Source: Gellertiella hungarica (GTDB lineage: Bacteria; Pseudomonadota; Alphaproteobacteria; Rhizobiales; Rhizobiaceae). From it: a DNA stretch of 64,000 nt. The stretch lies in assembly GCF_014197145.1 (NCBI RefSeq), contig NZ_JACIEZ010000004.1, positions 186,001 through 250,000 of the forward strand. The letters are read 5' to 3'. Positions 16,963 through 60,070 of this stretch are shown in pieces (position 1 is the stretch's first letter; each line of letters starts with the position of its first letter). The notes beneath the pieces were generated by a model. That model was not told the origin of the DNA, did no database searches, and saw only the letters and a program-made list of their open reading frames with translations. The position numbers and the translations under genes were made by a program.

Positions 16963-17532
16963 ATGGCAAAGCTTGAAAACCCCGTACTGATCGCCACCGT
17001 GGGTGCAGCCCAGGGATTGCGCGGCGAAGTGAGGGTAAAATCCTATACGGACGATCCCCTGGCCCTTGGCGACTATGGCAACCTGCATGCCACCGATGGG
17101 CGGATCTTCGAGATCCTCGACATGCGCGAGGCGAAGAACATGGTTATCGTTCGCTTCCGCGGAATCAATGACCGTACAGCGGCCGAAAGCCTGAACGGCC
17201 TCGATCTTTACATCGATCGGGCCAACCTGCCCGATGAGGAGCTCGAGGAAGACGAGTTCTACTTCGCCGATCTGGAGGGGCTGGAAGCGGTCGACGCCGA
17301 GGGGCGGTCCTGGGGACATGTAAGCGGCATCTATGATTTTGGCGCAGGCGACCTTCTGGAGCTGAAGGGGCAGGGCCGTCGACCGGCACTCATTCCCTTC
17401 TCCGAGGCCGCTGTTCTGGAAATCGATCTGGATGCGGGAAAAATGCTCGTCGATCCCGTCGCAGCCGGCCTGACGGAAGGCCCCTCCGACGGGCTTCCGC
17501 CGTCGATTTCCGGCGGGGAACCCCGCAAGTGA
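16963..17532 (+). CDS. rimM: Ribosome maturation factor RimM
   Basis: 189-aa 16S rRNA processing factor that binds S19 in the 30S head. The N-terminal domain begins [29 protein letters not shown]; the PRC-barrel domain follows [14 protein letters not shown] and [18 protein letters not shown] chose the ATG at 16963 at the domain boundary; upstream in-frame codons run through the stem-loop. A Pro/Ser/Gly-rich C-terminal tail precedes a 4-base overlap with trmD. Confidence 0.96.
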
Positions 17533-52931: not shown

Positions 52932-53501
52932 TCAGGCTGCTTCTTCCTGGCTTTCGTCCTCATCGACTGCCTTGCCGCGCTTGGGGCCCTTGGCGAGATG
53001 AGTCTCGACAAGACGAACGGCTTCAGTCTCGGACATCTTGTTCACGGCCGCGATCTCACGAGCCATCCGGTCCAGTGCGGCTTCGTAGAGCTGGCGCTCG
53101 GAATAAGACTGCTCCGGCTGGTTTTCGGCGCGGTAGAGGTCGCGAACGACTTCCGCAATCGAGATCAGATCGCCCGAATTGATCTTGGCATCATATTCCT
53201 GGGCGCGGCGCGACCACATGGTGCGCTTGACCCGGGCCTTGCCCTGGACGACCTTGAGTGCACGATCAACGAAATCAGTTTCGGACAGCTTGCGCATGCC
53301 GATGCTCACGGCCTTGGCAACCGGAACCTTGAGGCGCATCTTGTCCTTCTCAAAATCAATAACAAAAAGCTCGAGCTTCATACCCGCCACTTCCTGCTCT
53401 TCGATGGCGGTGATCGTACCCACGCCATGAGCGGGATAGACGATCGATTCACCGGTCTTGAAGCCCTGGCGCGTCGAAGATTTTTTCTGCTGGGTCGTCA
53501 T
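52932..53501 (-). CDS. carD: CarD-family transcriptional regulator
   Basis: 189-aa RNA polymerase-binding protein. The N-terminal Tudor-like RNAP-interacting domain is KTGESIVYPAHGVGTITAIEEQEVAGMKLELFVIDFEKDKMRLKVPVAKA; the helical DNA-binding part has WSRRAQEYDAKINSGDLISIAEVVRDLYR with the conserved Trp. CarD proteins stabilise open promoter complexes, notably of rRNA and stress genes. The ATG at 53501 is used; GGGAG is 12 bases upstream, a loose spacing. A TTG at 53510 is an alternative. Confidence 0.95.
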   Translation of the reverse strand: MTTQQKKSSTRQGFKTGESIVYPAHGVGTITAIEEQEVAGMKLELFVIDFEKDKMRLKVPVAKAVSIGMRKLSETDFVDRALKVVQGKARVKRTMWSRRAQEYDAKINSGDLISIAEVVRDLYRAENQPEQSYSERQLYEAALDRMAREIAAVNKMSETEAVRLVETHLAKGPKRGKAVDEDESQEEAA

Positions 53502-53870
53502 TCGATTCAAAAACTCCCTGTTACGCTCCCGGTCTGCCCGGGGCCGGGTCAGTCAGGCCCGGATTAGGCGGCGGCACCGCCGGGTGACTCCAGTTTCTGT
53601 TCCAGCATCAGCCCACGAATTGAACGTCCCGAAAACAAAAAACCCCTGCCCTCAGGCACACGCCTGCGTCATGGCTTCTTTTCGGATTCTTTCGTTTGCT
53701 TTCGTGATGGTTGCGGGCAGCGAATGCCCCGAAGTGGATCAGTATCAGGACCCTATCACAAAAATATGCGGAAATCAATAATTTGCTTTGCCTGTGCCTT
53801 GCCAGCCACGAGGCAGACGTCGAGAAAGGACGTTTTGTGATTCGGCGCCAAAACGGCGCTGCCAAGAAGA
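53502..53870. other. Gene-free region upstream of carD with a candidate small transcript
   Basis: No coding potential is convincing. On the minus strand, TTGATT (53778-53773), 17 bases, TAGGGT (53755-53750) form a promoter-like pair with a predicted start near 53743. About 100 bases downstream there is a hairpin CAGGC-GTGT-GCCTG (53666-53653) and then a run of six Ts (53642-53637). This could be the carD promoter with an attenuator, or a separate RNA of about 105 nt. The hairpin is short and the T-run is 10 bases beyond it. Confidence 0.35.
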
Positions 53871-53895
53871 AAAGGAGCCGCCTGGCAGCTCCTTT
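53871..53895 (-). terminator. Terminator of fdxA
   Basis: Stem AAAGGAGC (53871-53878) / GCTCCTTT (53888-53895) with a nine-base loop; on the minus strand a TTTTCTTCTT tract follows. It starts 7 bases after the fdxA stop. Confidence 0.8.
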
Positions 53896-53901
53896 TTCCC
53901 G

Positions 53902-54243
53902 TCACGCGTCGCCGCTGCCCGGGTTGGGCGAGAAGAACTTCTCGAATTTGCCCTCGACACCGTCCATCTCCTTTGCCTCCGGCAGAGGGTCCCGCTTCTG
54001 GGTGATGTTCGGCCAGATCAGGGCATATTCCGCATTGACCTTGAGCCACTTGTCGAGACCCGATTCCGTATCGGGCTTGATGGCTTCGGCAGGGCATTCC
54101 GGCTCGCAGACGCCGCAATCGATGCACTCGTCGGGGTGGATTACCAGAAAGTTCTCACCTTCGTAGAAGCAATCTACGGGGCACACCTCGACGCAATCCG
54201 TATATTTGCAACGAACGCAGTTGTCAGTCACGACATAGGTCAT
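53902..54243 (-). CDS. fdxA: Seven-iron ferredoxin FdxA
   Basis: 113-aa ferredoxin binding a [3Fe-4S] and a [4Fe-4S] cluster. Cysteines lie at 9, 12, 17, 21, 25, 40, 43, 46 and 50 ([15 protein letters not shown] and [12 protein letters not shown]). The C-terminal [17 protein letters not shown] tail is typical of alphaproteobacterial FdxA. The ATG at 54243 begins [10 protein letters not shown], the normal start; longer frames upstream are not conserved. Confidence 0.97.
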
Positions 54244-55400: not shown

Positions 55401-58400
55401 CTACTTCTTCATCTGTTCCTTGAGGGCAGCCAGTTTTGCGAAGGGCGAGTCCGGATCGACCGGCTTTTCCTTTCGGGGCGGCCTTGCCTCGAAACGCTGC
55501 TGCTGGGCAGGGCGTTCGTTGCGGTCCGGACGCGACTTGCGGTCGCCTTCGGGACGCTCATGGCGCTTGCCCTGGTTCTGCTCGGCGCGGCCCTGATCAG
55601 CCCTCGCCTGCGGACGATCACGGCCACCGCGATTGCCTTCGCCGCGACGGTTGTCGCCCTGTCGGGAACCCCGCTCTCCGCGCCCTTCGCCTTCACCGCC
55701 GCGATTCCCGCCCTGCGGGCGGCGGTTGCCTGCCTGATGGTTTCGCTGGTTGTCCTGCCGCCCGGCCGGACGCCAAAGCAGCACGGGCTTGACCTCGAGG
55801 GGCGCTTCCGGTGCGGTGTCGGTTGTGCCCGCTTCGATCGGCTGCTCGGCAGCGGGCGCTGCATCGGCAGTATCGGAAGCAACCGCCTCCCCAGCCTGCG
55901 TGGCAGCAGGCTCGGACGTGGCTTCCTCACCCTCGGACGATGCCGGTTCGGCAGCGGCCTGCGCCGGTTCAATCGAAGCAAGGTAGGCGGCCGCCTCTTC
56001 GGGCTTTACCGCATCGGCGCGGTACCCGAGACCCTTCAGGATCTCTTCCATATCGTCGGGCGTGGCCCCGAGGATGGAGAGCATGGCGGGCGTGCTGGTA
56101 AAGCGGCGGCCGTCATAGGCACCTTCGGGACGGGGTGTCGTGCCCGGCTTCCACTGCAGAAGCGGGCGAATGATATCCGCGAGCCGTTCGAGAATGTCGA
56201 TACGCACCGCACGCTTGCCCAGGAAGCGGAAACCCGCGAGCTTGTAGAAGGTCCGCTCGAAGCCGGGATCGGTGACCACCGAGGTACGGCCGGCGGCAAG
56301 CGCGGGGATAAGCTCACCATAGCCGGGCTTGTCCATGCCGTCGTTCTTCAGCGCCCAAAGCAGCGTGATCAGCTCTGCCGGTGCAGGCTTCAGCAGGGCG
56401 GGCATGAAGATATGGTAGGCGCCGAAACGAACGCCGTAGCGGCGCATCGAGGCTCGGGCATCCTGATCCAGCGACTTGACGTCCTCGGTCACGTCGCGGC
56501 GGAAAAGCACGCCGAGATTCTCGACCAGCTGGAACGCAAGCCCCTTCGCCAGTCCCTGCAGGTCTTCCGCACGGGAAATATCGTCGAGCGGCTTCAGAAC
56601 GGTGGAGATGTGATGGTTCACGAAGCGCTCGATTCGCGCGGCGACGTGTTCGCGCGCGGGTCCCGTCAGCTGTTCATCGGCAAGAACGATGACGCGGGGA
56701 CGCATGACGTGATCGTTGGCGGCAAGCCGCGCAACCGGCTCGCCGAGCCACCGCACATAACCGTCGGCGCCAAGGGCGAGGTCGCCATTGCCGGAAGCGT
56801 GAAGGCGGGCAGCCCGCGCCTCGAATTCGAGCGCAAGAGCCTTTTGCGCGGCAGTCTGGACTGCCTTCGCCTCCGGGCCGTCGGACACGGCGATTGGGGA
56901 GAACCGGAAACCGGCCAACTGCCCGACATGATGTCCCTCGACGAAGACATCTCCATTCACACTGATTTCAGCTTCCAGCATCGCATTCTCTCTCAGGCGC
57001 TTCATGAGCACAGATGTCCTGCGATCAACAAAGCGTTTCGTCAACCTCTCATGTAACGCGTCAGACAACCGATCCTCGATTTCCCGCGTCTTTTCTTGCC
57101 AGTGTGTCGGATCGGCAAGCCATCCCGGACGGTTGGACACATAGGTCCACGTCCTTATCTGCGCAATTCGGGCCGATAATGTGTCAATCTCGCCCTCTGT
57201 GCGGTCGGCACGGTAAACCTGCTCGGCCATGTAGTCCTCGTTGACAGCACCATGCCGGACAAGATCCGAATAGAGGGTGGCAATGAGTTCGGCATGCTGG
57301 GCAGGGGTAATGCGCCGATAATCGGGAAGCGCGCATGCCTCCCAAAGCTTTTCTACCCTTTCGGGTGTGGTCGCAATATCCTGAATCTCCGGGTAGCGTG
57401 CAAGCAGTTCCAGCGCCTGTTGATCGACGGCAGGCAATGCGCGCGTCAACCCCTGTACCGGAGGTGCCGCTTCGAGGCTTGCGCGCAGCGCCTTTATCGA
57501 AGCGAAATCCAGCTCCTTCGTCCGCCACTGAAGCACGCGCACCGGGTCGAAATGATGGGTTTCGATCCGCTCCACAAGTTCGGGGTCGAAGGGATCGACT
57601 CGTCCCGTCACCCCGAAGGTGCCGTCGCGGACATGGCGCCCTGCGCGTCCCGCGATCTGGCCGATTTCGCCGGGGTTCAGATCCCTGAACTGATAACCGT
57701 CAAACTTTCTATCCTGGGCAAAGGCAACGTGATCGACGTCGAGATTGAGACCCATCCCGATCGCGTCCGTCGCGACGAGGTACTCCACGTCGCCTTCCTG
57801 GTAGAGCCCTACCTGCGCATTGCGCGTGCGGGGGCTGAGCGCACCGAGGACGACGGCAGCGCCGCCGCGCTGACGGCGGATCAGTTCGGCGATGGCGTAC
57901 ACTTCTTCTGCAGAAAAGGCGACGATTGCGCTGCGCTTGGGCAAGCGCGTGATCTTTTTCGAGCCGGCATAGGACAGCTGTGAAAGCCTGGGGCGCTCGA
58001 CAACCGTGATGCCGGGCAGCAATTGCTCGAGGATGGTGCGCATGGTGCCCGCACCCAGGAGGAGCGTTTCATCGCGCCCGCGCAAATGCAGCAATCGGTC
58101 CGTGAAGATGTGGCCGCGCTCGAGGTCGCCCGCAAGCTGCACTTCGTCGATGGCGACGAAAGCGGCGCGCGTTTCGCGCGGCATGGCCTCCACGGTGCAG
58201 ACCTGGAAACGGGCAGAAGGCGGAACGATCTTCTCCTCGCCCGTCACCAGAGCGACATGGGCAGCACCGACCCGCTCGACCACACGGGTATAGACTTCCC
58301 GCGCCAGGAGACGCAGCGGCAGCCCGATCACGCCCGAACCGTGCGCAACCATGCGCTCGATCGCGTAATGGGTCTTGCCCGTATTGGTCGGGCCGAGGAC

Positions 58401-58430
58401 CGCGGTGACGCCGCGACCGCTCAGGATCAT
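55401..58430 (-). CDS. Suv3-like DEAD/DExH-box RNA helicase
   Basis: 1009-aa helicase. Walker A GPTNTGKT begins at residue 13, motif II is AIDEVQLAGD, and VVLGALSPRTRNAQVGLYQEGDVEYLVATDAIGMGLNLDVDHVAFAQ with IGQIAGRAGRHVRDGTFG are typical of mitochondrial SUV3 and its bacterial relatives. The last 200 residues are low-complexity: Ala/Glu-rich, then Arg/Gly/Asn-rich RNA-binding repeats (NRGGEGEGRGERGSRQGDN). I used the ATG at 58430, where family similarity starts; the ATG at 58505 is an alternative and neither has a strong ribosome site. RNA processing or degradation is the likely role. Confidence 0.9.
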   Translation of the reverse strand: MILSGRGVTAVLGPTNTGKTHYAIERMVAHGSGVIGLPLRLLAREVYTRVVERVGAAHVALVTGEEKIVPPSARFQVCTVEAMPRETRAAFVAIDEVQLAGDLERGHIFTDRLLHLRGRDETLLLGAGTMRTILEQLLPGITVVERPRLSQLSYAGSKKITRLPKRSAIVAFSAEEVYAIAELIRRQRGGAAVVLGALSPRTRNAQVGLYQEGDVEYLVATDAIGMGLNLDVDHVAFAQDRKFDGYQFRDLNPGEIGQIAGRAGRHVRDGTFGVTGRVDPFDPELVERIETHHFDPVRVLQWRTKELDFASIKALRASLEAAPPVQGLTRALPAVDQQALELLARYPEIQDIATTPERVEKLWEACALPDYRRITPAQHAELIATLYSDLVRHGAVNEDYMAEQVYRADRTEGEIDTLSARIAQIRTWTYVSNRPGWLADPTHWQEKTREIEDRLSDALHERLTKRFVDRRTSVLMKRLRENAMLEAEISVNGDVFVEGHHVGQLAGFRFSPIAVSDGPEAKAVQTAAQKALALEFEARAARLHASGNGDLALGADGYVRWLGEPVARLAANDHVMRPRVIVLADEQLTGPAREHVAARIERFVNHHISTVLKPLDDISRAEDLQGLAKGLAFQLVENLGVLFRRDVTEDVKSLDQDARASMRRYGVRFGAYHIFMPALLKPAPAELITLLWALKNDGMDKPGYGELIPALAAGRTSVVTDPGFERTFYKLAGFRFLGKRAVRIDILERLADIIRPLLQWKPGTTPRPEGAYDGRRFTSTPAMLSILGATPDDMEEILKGLGYRADAVKPEEAAAYLASIEPAQAAAEPASSEGEEATSEPAATQAGEAVASDTADAAPAAEQPIEAGTTDTAPEAPLEVKPVLLWRPAGRQDNQRNHQAGNRRPQGGNRGGEGEGRGERGSRQGDNRRGEGNRGGRDRPQARADQGRAEQNQGKRHERPEGDRKSRPDRNERPAQQQRFEARPPRKEKPVDPDSPFAKLAALKEQMKK

Positions 58431-58607
58431 CGGTTGCTTGATCAAAATGTCGTTCCACAAAAACCGTCCAGCTTCCACGAAGTCCGCCGGAGACCTCGCA
58501 CACATGGCGTTCCCGGAGACCAAAGACAAGTGCTTAAATTGACCTTCTGGAAAAGAACCGCCGCCCTGGCGGACAGGATGTCGCAAAGTCCGGAACACGC
58601 CATCGGG

Positions 58608-58677
58608 TTAACGAATGGAACAGCGACGGAACGAATCGCTGACGAATCGCTCACCAGGGCATTTTCCCGATTTGTTC
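58608..58677 (+). repeat. Repeat module R1
   Basis: TTAA at 58608, GAAC-N7-GAAC at 58618-58632, GAATC at 58633 and 58644 (11 bp apart), and GATTTGTTC ending at 58677. It shares with R2 and R3 an identical 25-bp distance from TTAA to the first GAATC and 44 bp from that GAATC to the final C of TTGTTC. This copy is closest to the helicase gene. Confidence 0.9.
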
Positions 58678-58694
58678 CCCACTACATCTAGATT

Positions 58695-58750
58695 GTCTGG
58701 GCCTCGTCCGTGCCATATCAAGACAGCCTGCGGAAGAGGCAAGCCCAGAC
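58695..58750. other. Stem-loop between repeat modules R1 and R2
   Basis: GTCTGGGC (58695-58702) pairs with GCCCAGAC (58743-58750); CTC/GAG extends it inward after a bulge. There is no T-run, so it is not a terminator. It may be part of an RNA leader of the helicase or a DNA-level structure. Confidence 0.5.
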
Positions 58751-58794
58751 ATCGCGGGCGCCGTTAACTCTTTCGCGAGAAGCGGCGAGGCGGA

Positions 58795-58809
58795 TTAACC
58801 GTTTGTTAA
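58795..58809. promoter_or_regulatory. CtrA-type site TTAA-N7-TTAA
   Basis: TTAACCGTTTGTTAA matches the full CtrA consensus with seven bases between the TTAA halves. It lies between repeats R1 and R2, upstream of the helicase gene. CtrA binding is inferred from the motif only. Confidence 0.5.
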
Positions 58810-58850
58810 GCTTGCCCTTCCGGCTCTTGCTCCTTCGGGGCGGAGGCTCG

Positions 58851-58920
58851 TTAACAAACTGTCCAAAAACGGAACGAATCACAGACGAATCACCGACGTC
58901 GTGATTTTCTTCTTTTGTTC
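58851..58920 (+). repeat. Repeat module R2
   Basis: TTAA at 58851, degenerate GTCC-N7-GAAC at 58861-58875, GAATC at 58876 and 58887, TTTTGTTC ending at 58920. Beyond the module, similarity to R3 continues for about 30 bp (a second TTGTTCACCATA-like element near 58943). Confidence 0.9.
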
Positions 58921-59111
58921 GCATCAACATGTAGTATCTCAATTGTTCACCATATACGATTTCGGGATCTCTGTTTCCCTCAACTCGCTCTCCGGCGTCG
59001 TGCAAAGGTTAATGCCCGTGAAGCGGGGTCATTTGCCTTCGCGGGATAGTCGGCGGTCTCGCTGAACTCAGTGGCGGACTAATGTAGGCCAGTCTTGTGC
59101 CAAGACGGGAA

Positions 59112-59181
59112 TTAACCTTCAGAACAGGGCTGGAACGAATCGCAGACGAATCGCTGACGTGGCTCGTTTCCCGATTTGTTC
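59112..59181 (+). repeat. Repeat module R3
   Basis: TTAA at 59112, GAAC-N7-GAAC at 59122-59136, GAATC at 59137 and 59148, GATTTGTTC ending at 59181. Downstream, a TTTGTTAACCATA element (near 59208) matches the R2 extension. Confidence 0.9.
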
Positions 59182-59225
59182 ACCGCAGTATATTGTGTAA
59201 TATCAATTTGTTAACCATAGAAATC

Positions 59226-59296: not shown

Positions 59297-59322
59297 AAAA
59301 GGCGGCTTTGCAGCCGCCTTTT
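59297..59322 (-). terminator. Terminator of phaB
   Basis: Perfect stem AAAAGGCGGCT (59297-59307) / AGCCGCCTTTT (59312-59322), loop TTGC; on the minus strand the stem is followed by TTGC after a run of Ts that includes the stem end (59300-59295). It begins 22 bases after the phaB stop. Confidence 0.9.
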
Positions 59323-59344: not shown

Positions 59345-60070
59345 TCACACGAAGAACTGGCCGCCATTGGCGGAGATGGTCGAACCCGTGATGAACCCCG
59401 CGTCCTCGGACGCGAGAAAGACCACGCAACGGGCAATTTCCTCCGGCTCGCCAAGCCGGCCCACGGGTATCTGCGGGATGATGCGCTCGTTCAGCACCTT
59501 TTCGGGAATGGCCCGCACCATCTCAGTCCCGATATAGCCGGGGCAGATGGCATTGACCGTAATGCCTTTTGCCGCCCCTTCCTGGGCAAGAGCCTTAGTG
59601 AAACCGAGGTCGCCGGCCTTGGCTGCGGAGTAGTTGGCCTGCCCCATCTGGCCTTTCTGCCCGTTGATCGAGGAAATGTTGATCACGCGTCCGAAGTTTC
59701 GCTCGCGCATGCCGTTCCAGATCGGATGCGTCATGTTGAAAAGGCCGGTCAGGTTGGTCCCGATGACCTCACCCCATTGCTCCGGCGTCATCTTGTGGAA
59801 CATGGCATCGCGCGTGATGCCCGCGTTGTTGACCAGGATGTCCACCGGACCAAGATCGGCCTCCACCCTGGCAATTCCCTCGGCGCAGGCCTGATAACTG
59901 GAAACATCCCACTTGTAGACCGGGATGCCGGTTTCGCCCTCGAAGGCCCTGGCCTTTTCTTCATTGCCGGCAAAATTCGCCGCAACCCTGTAACCCGCAT
60001 TCTTCAGTGCCACCGATATGGCCGCCCCTATGCCACGCGTCCCACCCGTGACCAATGCTACTCGCGTCAT
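59345..60070 (-). CDS. phaB: Acetoacetyl-CoA reductase
   Basis: 241-aa short-chain dehydrogenase reducing acetoacetyl-CoA with NADPH to (R)-3-hydroxybutyryl-CoA for PHB. Motifs: ALVTGGTRGIGAAI, NNAGITRDAMFHKMTPEQW, and the Ser-Tyr-Lys set NISSINGQKGQMGQANYSAAKAG; the GRLGEPEEIARCVVFLASEDAGFITGSTISANGGQF ending is typical of PhaB. It lies 83 bases downstream of phaA, so the two form an operon. The synthase phaC is not in the window. Confidence 0.97.
   Translation of the reverse strand: MTRVALVTGGTRGIGAAISVALKNAGYRVAANFAGNEEKARAFEGETGIPVYKWDVSSYQACAEGIARVEADLGPVDILVNNAGITRDAMFHKMTPEQWGEVIGTNLTGLFNMTHPIWNGMRERNFGRVINISSINGQKGQMGQANYSAAKAGDLGFTKALAQEGAAKGITVNAICPGYIGTEMVRAIPEKVLNERIIPQIPVGRLGEPEEIARCVVFLASEDAGFITGSTISANGGQFFV

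Follow-up and report, generated by a model that had tools for sequence, protein, structure and literature searches.

The LexA box of Alphaproteobacteria is GAAC-N7-GAAC, the full CtrA box is TTAA-N7-TTAA, and the EcfG motif is GGAAC-N16-CGTT. CcrM accepts any base at the N of its GANTC site, and hemE is the usual neighbor of oriC. According to passages of the respective papers, the extended GcrA motif reads YGAKTCK (PMC8725594), and NrdR needs two boxes whose centers are a whole number of helical turns apart (PMC12051234); topA of Pseudomonas aeruginosa is a single-box target, which NrdR activates (PMC4409342). The locus described here, upstream of a helicase gene, carries three copies of a larger unit, in which NrdR-like boxes stand next to a conserved dyad that contains a GcrA-like site.

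Three modules between phaB and mgpS

The window (the whole stretch of DNA that was analyzed, 64 kb) contains a 746-bp intergenic stretch between phaB and mgpS with three same-strand modules, R1, R2, and R3. The name mgpS, given to S. meliloti SMc03877 in a passage of PMC4941405, was transferred to the present helicase gene, and the start codon at 58505 is a choice made in this analysis. Relatives of phaB are annotated as acetoacetyl-CoA reductase. The features, in window positions, are as follows:

55401–58505, minus strand: mgpS, Suv3-like helicase of 1034 aa with domains PF22527 and PF00271; presumed target
58608–58722, plus strand: R1, helicase-proximal type, with TTAA, GAAC-N7-GAAC, GAACGAATC, GACGAATC, TTC, TTTGTTC, NrdR-like box 1, and a weak box 2
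58629–58677, unstranded: dyad of R1, arms GAACGAA (58629–58635) and TTTGTTC (58671–58677)
58633–58648, plus strand: CcrM (GANTC) sites of R1, site 1 at 58633 and site 2 at 58644
58682–58722, unstranded: NrdR-like boxes of R1, CTACATCTAG (58682–58691, 8/8) and CCATATCAAG (58713–58722, 6/8), 31 bp apart
58851–58934, plus strand: R2, middle type, with GTCC at −11, core as in R1, and NrdR-like box 1
58872–58920, unstranded: dyad of R2, arms 58872–58878 and 58914–58920
58876–58891, plus strand: CcrM sites of R2, site 1 at 58876 and site 2 at 58887
58925–58934, unstranded: NrdR-like box of R2, CAACATGTAG (8/8)
59112–59219, plus strand: R3, phaB-proximal type, with core as in R1, NrdR-like box 1, then TTAACCATA at 59211
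59133–59181, unstranded: dyad of R3, arms 59133–59139 and 59175–59181
59137–59152, plus strand: CcrM sites of R3, site 1 at 59137 and site 2 at 59148
59186–59195, unstranded: NrdR-like box of R3, CAGTATATTG (7/8)
59187–59214, minus (helicase) strand: promoter-like pair TTAACA-16-TATACT from a consensus scan only, overlapping the R3 box
59345–60070, minus strand: phaB, short-chain dehydrogenase (PF13561), ending before the array

A repeat finder reported one direct family with 63-nt units at 58618, 58861, and 59122 (identity to R1, 67% and 81%). This reproduced the common orientation and the steps of 243 and 261 that the initial annotation had described. Its fixed inner distances were re-measured and were identical across the three modules: 25 from TTAA to the first GAATC, 11 between the two GAATC, 44 (as a difference; 45 bases inclusive) from the first GAATC to where TTGTTC ends, and 70 from TTAA to the end of the module motif. 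The parts of that layout were thus correct, but the layout was too small. With position 0 set at the first GAAC, the module runs further to the right, with a palindrome at +53 and, in R1, a partner at +84; on its left, 11 bp away, there is a G-N-N-C repeat. No second NrdR-like box was present at offset 31 in R2.

The pattern GAACGAATCnnnGACGAATC occurs exactly three times in the 4.77-Mb genome, always within the array, with two further matches elsewhere at 2 mismatches. Its reversed-pattern control gave 0 matches in the same genome, and the array therefore exceeds chance. A sequence-only model (95 positions, 56 copies; its E-values are rough) found the three modules at E 1.1e-17 or better, and its next match in this genome was at 0.035.

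The intergenic stretch contains six GANTC, precisely the six module sites. This is the window maximum per 746 bp, tied by one other stretch (starts 53317–53446); 53317–54191 is the sole other region of the window holding 746-bp stretches with six GANTC. The consensus scan found 2 promoter-like pairs in the 1-kb region, compared to 0.4 in shuffles. By eye, a GGCGGC-TTTGCA-GCCGCC hairpin between A and T runs was seen at 59301–59318, likely a two-way terminator separating phaB and the array. Directly 5′ of the mgpS start (58500–58535), and also in relatives, a conserved leader reads, on the helicase strand and by eye, approximately CTTGCnTTTGCC and then GCCATGTG; it is distinct from R1–R3. A full, CtrA-like TTAA-N7-TTAA lies between R1 and R2 (58795–58809). 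Such a full box is retained in few relatives (5/56 intergenic regions, first 1200 bp, compared to a mean of 0.4 in shuffles). An EcfG site was not counted, as the −10 part is absent by eye.

Conservation, spacing, and orientation of the module before mgpS

The sequence model matched 94 of the 131 Rhizobiaceae genomes, 147/199 genomes drawn from the order (38 families among the matches listed), and 27/289 drawn from the class, three of the 27 belonging to the order; all these counts include the genome under study and others from its own family or order. A pattern search found the element in 18/41 genomes (the genome under study included) and in 0/16 genomes from other families of the order. The latter result reflects a limit of the pattern, since the model finds the element there. 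Judged by these matches, conservation of the element reaches well past Rhizobiaceae. Among the 67 loci caught by a stricter pattern, the number of copies was one to five. Order genomes carried one to five copies, and nine loci outside the order one copy each.

At least one module was present in the 5′ flank of mgpS in 78/80 named Rhizobiaceae loci that were retrieved via the helicase, many of them from close relatives. Conservation upstream of the Suv3-like helicase, which had been put forward as a check, was thus borne out in this family. In L094, L095, and L100 the sole full module copy lies at the phaB end, and in L046 and L116 mgpS is present and no module was found. In the wider samples, a module precedes mgpS in 14/20 order loci (20 regions from 15 genomes, picked partly since five genomes had two loci) and in 9/9 loci outside the order, and it is antiparallel to mgpS in all 23 of these. 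The gene on the other side varies by lineage (phaB, acyl-CoA dehydrogenase, monooxygenase, and others, named from reading translations), which makes mgpS the constant partner.

Six order loci (L156, L164, L160, L162, L157, L158) carry modules with no mgpS within the ~10-kb stretch. Those of family f26 (L156, L164) are three-module arrays, and those of family f34 (L160, L162) are single copies. The f26 arrays adjoin cysNC-like, DUF3108-like, and rpmB-like genes (names from reading translations), and the same two genomes also have one module at mgpS (L155, L163). In the Rhizobiaceae locus L141, a module at the phaB 3′ end (2005–2084) and another at mgpS (17305–17389) are separated by 15 kb and point in opposite directions. 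A pair of small genes (annotated as DUF3309 and glycine-zipper protein) lies between mgpS and phaB in L040 (3234–3677) and was seen in some Rhizobiaceae loci. By eye, a similar small gene stands close to mgpS in L046, L094, L095, and L116, and the module there is missing.

The conserved unit consists of GAACGAA, an invariant CGAATC, TTC, TTTGTTC, and then the palindrome C-N-A-N-AT-N-T-N-G. The first copy collections were seeded with the GAATC core, which inflates their conservation at positions 0–19, and the model was built from Rhizobiaceae copies. Because of this seeding, sites 1 and 2 were judged from the model-found copies outside Rhizobiaceae. These were aligned as 40 rows (37 distinct copies, 30 loci), omitting the weak loci away from mgpS (L156, L157, L158, L164), whose copies keep CGAATC and have a poorer TTTGTTC. 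In this alignment, G−11, C14, each base of GAATC at 15–19, and GTTC at 45–48 were found in 37/37 copies. GAAC at 0–3 was kept in 34, 36, 36, and 37 of 37, A5 in 36/36, TTC at 35–37 in 30, 32, and 36 of 37, and the palindrome positions C53, A55, A57, T58, T60, and G62 in 33 to 35 of 35 or 36.

Relatives of the present genome retain the spacing: the distance from GAAC to GTTC was 45 bp in 41/42 copies of the first comparison set. Information content along the unit has a period of 11.2 bp in the copies outside Rhizobiaceae (permutation p 0.0035). In the Rhizobiaceae alignment, which retains 163 distinct sequences out of 172 copies and is restricted to those whose GTTC is at 45, column covariation mainly sorts module types. 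The constant distance and the helical period, together with the lack of any compensatory stem pair within Rhizobiaceae, support the earlier suggestion that fixed spacing with free filler reflects protein binding.

Copies at the same position of the array were more alike across loci (first-first 0.72, last-last 0.70, values inflated by many close relatives among the loci) than copies within one locus (0.59), so that the copies are old and have been kept. First copies are marked by GAAC-N7-GAAC (first 39/53, middle 0/40, last 2/41), and last copies by TTAACCATA (last 37/41, first 1/53, middle 2/40). As far as these comparisons go, the copies are old and specialized by position. A passive or mobile repeat would account for three similar copies whose number varies from 1 to 5 between loci, but it is practically untenable given this pattern of similarity, the restriction of the copies to the array in the genome under study, and the class-wide conservation before one gene. 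A scattered repeat family, which the initial annotation had named as the sign of such an origin, was not seen in that genome, although a second locus is present in some other lineages.

The two GAATC sites differ in their conservation. Outside Rhizobiaceae, site 1 is GAATC in only 15/37 copies (GACTC in one more), and site 2 in 37/37, so the GAATC pair did not hold as the defining feature. The middle base of site 2 is A in 37/37 copies, its flanks are C14 and A or G at position 20 in 37/37, and on the helicase strand it reads YGAKTCK. Methylation alone fails to explain this site, since CcrM is indifferent to N and N is nevertheless always A. Of the CcrM-linked binding proposed earlier, what stands is a possible role for the single site 2 in the extended GcrA form; the paired sites are not core.

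The right part of the module looks like NrdR boxes. Scored against the NrdR consensus, the 16-mer at 59183 in R3 had the top score in the 64-kb window (13/16). The core C-W-A-N-AT-N-T-W-G was found with at least 7/8 at exactly +53 in 48/52 first, 29/40 middle, and 27/31 last copies, with 8 more palindromes at +52 in middle copies (background 0.0006 per position). Outside Rhizobiaceae, the W positions are weak (23/34 and 14/35) and the left flank of the box differs from the ACA of the consensus.

A second box was sought at other offsets in the 67 of 80 loci caught by the stricter pattern and in 28 of the 40 outside rows. Offset 31 was the best of 78 offsets in both the helicase-proximal and the outside-Rhizobiaceae sets. 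In helicase-proximal copies, 55/67 scored at least 6/8 there (mean 5.69, compared to 2.47 over all offsets), and outside Rhizobiaceae 12/28 scored at least 6 (mean 4.54, compared to 2.37). In distal copies only 14/67 reached 6, and the mean of 4.00 was second to that of offset 83 (4.06). The nrdJ promoter of the same genome carries ACACTATATTTAGTGT and CCACAATATAGAGTGC, 32 bp apart, and three NrdR-like boxes (L177 490, 759, and 791) lie upstream of its class II ribonucleotide reductase gene. An NrdR gene was present in 10/10 tested genomes above the TIGR00244 cut-off. Palindrome and spacing match those of NrdR box pairs, and the boxes look like putative NrdR sites.

On balance, R1–R3 are probably copies of an old, multi-input cis-regulatory unit of mgpS, with NrdR boxes, one CcrM/GcrA-type site, and a dyad for another protein. 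Against this reading stand the distal copies, which are mostly without a second box (14/67 at 6 or more) although high-affinity binding of NrdR needs two, the weak W positions and the non-ACA left flank outside Rhizobiaceae, the modules away from mgpS (L156, L164, L160, L162, L157, L158), and L046 and L116, which keep mgpS with no module found. A two-sided change of one dyad stem pair in 6/37 copies, which RNA would also predict, is a further point against it.

Alternative readings of the array

The array could be a nucleoprotein site of the chromosome that works on its own, such as a complex that depends on CcrM/GcrA or is linked to replication, with mgpS merely as its neighbor. The f26 arrays (L156, L164) and f34 single copies (L160, L162) without mgpS in the 10-kb stretch would fit such a site, as would the dense GANTC, tied for the window maximum. 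We consider it unlikely, because 23 of the 29 loci, from across the class, have the module before and antiparallel to mgpS, and because hemE, the usual oriC neighbor, is far from the array. In the four genomes with both on one contig, the distance was ~209 kb (G001), 249 kb (G017), 264 kb (G003), and 482 kb (G019), which led us to reject an oriC reading; in G000 and G004, hemE and the array are on different contigs.

That the left part of the module is an SOS (LexA) operator is rather improbable. GAAC-N7-GAAC is perfect in R1 and R3 and is present in 39/53 helicase-proximal copies, and the lexA promoter of the same genome carries GGAACACAACTGGAAC. However, the motif is found in 0/40 middle and 2/41 last copies, and it leaves the better conserved GAACGAA, CGAATC, and TTTGTTC unexplained. 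Both halves are present in only 57/163 Rhizobiaceae copies and in 20/37 outside, and on these counts LexA was rejected as a general binder of the modules. A LexA input at R1 and R3 is possible.

Each module could also encode a small RNA or act as an RNA leader. One stem of 7 pairs (GAACGAA/TTYGTTC) is predicted, 91.8% of the cells outside Rhizobiaceae are paired when the module strand is read, and tandem small RNAs such as sra41 are known in rhizobia (from a passage of PMC2245857). On the module strand outside Rhizobiaceae, the fifth pair of the stem is seen as G-C, G-U, and A-U, and in 6/37 copies it is altered on both sides (G-C to A-U), a count reached in 19/500 shuffles. These two-sided changes led us to rate the RNA reading slightly higher and the cis-regulatory reading slightly lower; a symmetric protein site would also allow them.

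Most of the evidence on folding points away from RNA. Two other stem pairs fail to form in 11 and 5, respectively, of the 37 copies outside Rhizobiaceae, and RNAalifold found 0 compensatory pairs in the Rhizobiaceae alignment. On the mgpS strand, the fifth pair is an A-C mismatch in 129/163 Rhizobiaceae copies; it is intact in 25/37 copies outside the family. Fold z-scores were 0.27, −0.86, 0.21, and −0.62, with the energies of R1 and R3 equal to those of shuffles. No Rfam family reached its gathering score in the region, and when four loci were scanned up to E 1, the four Rfam hits were all far below theirs. Terms for the flanking genes were not found in the main texts, as far as accessible, of four rhizobial small-RNA surveys. 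An RNA element is thus quite improbable. With a stem that lacks family covariation and has the mgpS-strand mismatch, shuffle-like folds, and no Rfam family, DNA binding appears to be the better reading, though not a proven one.

Putative function and comparison with known systems

Under the preferred reading of a multi-input cis-regulatory unit of mgpS, the anatomy of the unit, its conservation, its fixed spacing, and its linkage and orientation to mgpS are observed; we infer which proteins bind, where the promoter lies, and in which direction control would run. Read on the helicase strand, the unit starts with an NrdR-like palindromic box; in the helicase-proximal copy, another box lies 31 bp upstream of it. 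Next comes the 49-bp dyad GAACRAA ... TTCGTTC, within which a single CcrM site of extended GcrA form is invariant, and mgpS follows. Short G-N-N-C repeats at an 11-bp period lie on one helix face. In its dATP-loaded form, NrdR would occupy the box pair near the promoter and thereby tie helicase expression to the dNTP pool and the dATP/ATP balance. The methylation state of the invariant GAATC may provide a replication-linked, cell-cycle or damage input, and a separate dyad-binding protein may likewise provide a cell-cycle or damage input. Tandem duplication in Hyphomicrobiales would then have multiplied the unit, with copies specialized by position.

A bolder reading, which we regard as tentative, is that the modules belong to an undescribed class-wide nucleoprotein element. 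NrdR, CcrM methylation, and a further dyad-binding protein would act on one face of ~120 bp to set helicase expression, and the array copies of Hyphomicrobiales would have taken different inputs and could outlive the link to the gene.

It is rare for an intergenic element to precede one and the same gene in Rhizobiaceae and in other orders of the class, with a core that is invariant and no owner found. If NrdR binds the boxes, the right part of the module would represent a known type of site at a new target. The NrdR regulon would then reach past deoxynucleotide synthesis to include a helicase, and one promoter would combine dNTP sensing with CcrM methylation. The dyad offers a ready bait for a probably conserved DNA-binding protein. 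The element and NrdR control of the helicase were not found in the literature searched; RegPrecise and the 2005 NrdR regulon study were outside its scope and may list the helicase. Nor was the dyad part found described in the partial listings and passages to which the search was limited. The initial annotation knew of no described element with such a layout, which agrees with this result for the dyad part and not for the right part, which resembles NrdR boxes.

The left part of the module shares with the LexA box an identical half-site and 11-bp period in Rhizobiaceae helicase-proximal copies (39/53). It differs in that the box is missing from nearly all middle and last copies (2/81 have it) and from 17/37 copies outside Rhizobiaceae. 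The CcrM/GcrA-controlled promoters of Alphaproteobacteria resemble the module in its invariant GANTC of YGAKTCK form (the motif as given in PMC8725594 passages). In contrast to these promoters, the N of the module site is fixed as A and the site lies inside a larger invariant block. The topA gene of Pseudomonas aeruginosa is similar in being a non-reductase gene of DNA metabolism with one box. The module is far larger, and the sign of its putative control may differ from the activation by NrdR at topA (both points on topA from a passage of PMC4409342).

Another likeness in form is to the NrdR box pair of ribonucleotide reductase promoters, with the core CWANATNTWG and a spacing of 31 bp in the module compared to 32 bp in nrdJ. 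Unlike the boxes of the nrdJ promoter in the same genome, where no dyad was seen by eye, the module boxes are joined to a conserved dyad. In addition, and in contrast to the box pairs of reductase promoters, the module has a helicase gene as its target and carries a good pair only in the helicase-proximal copy.
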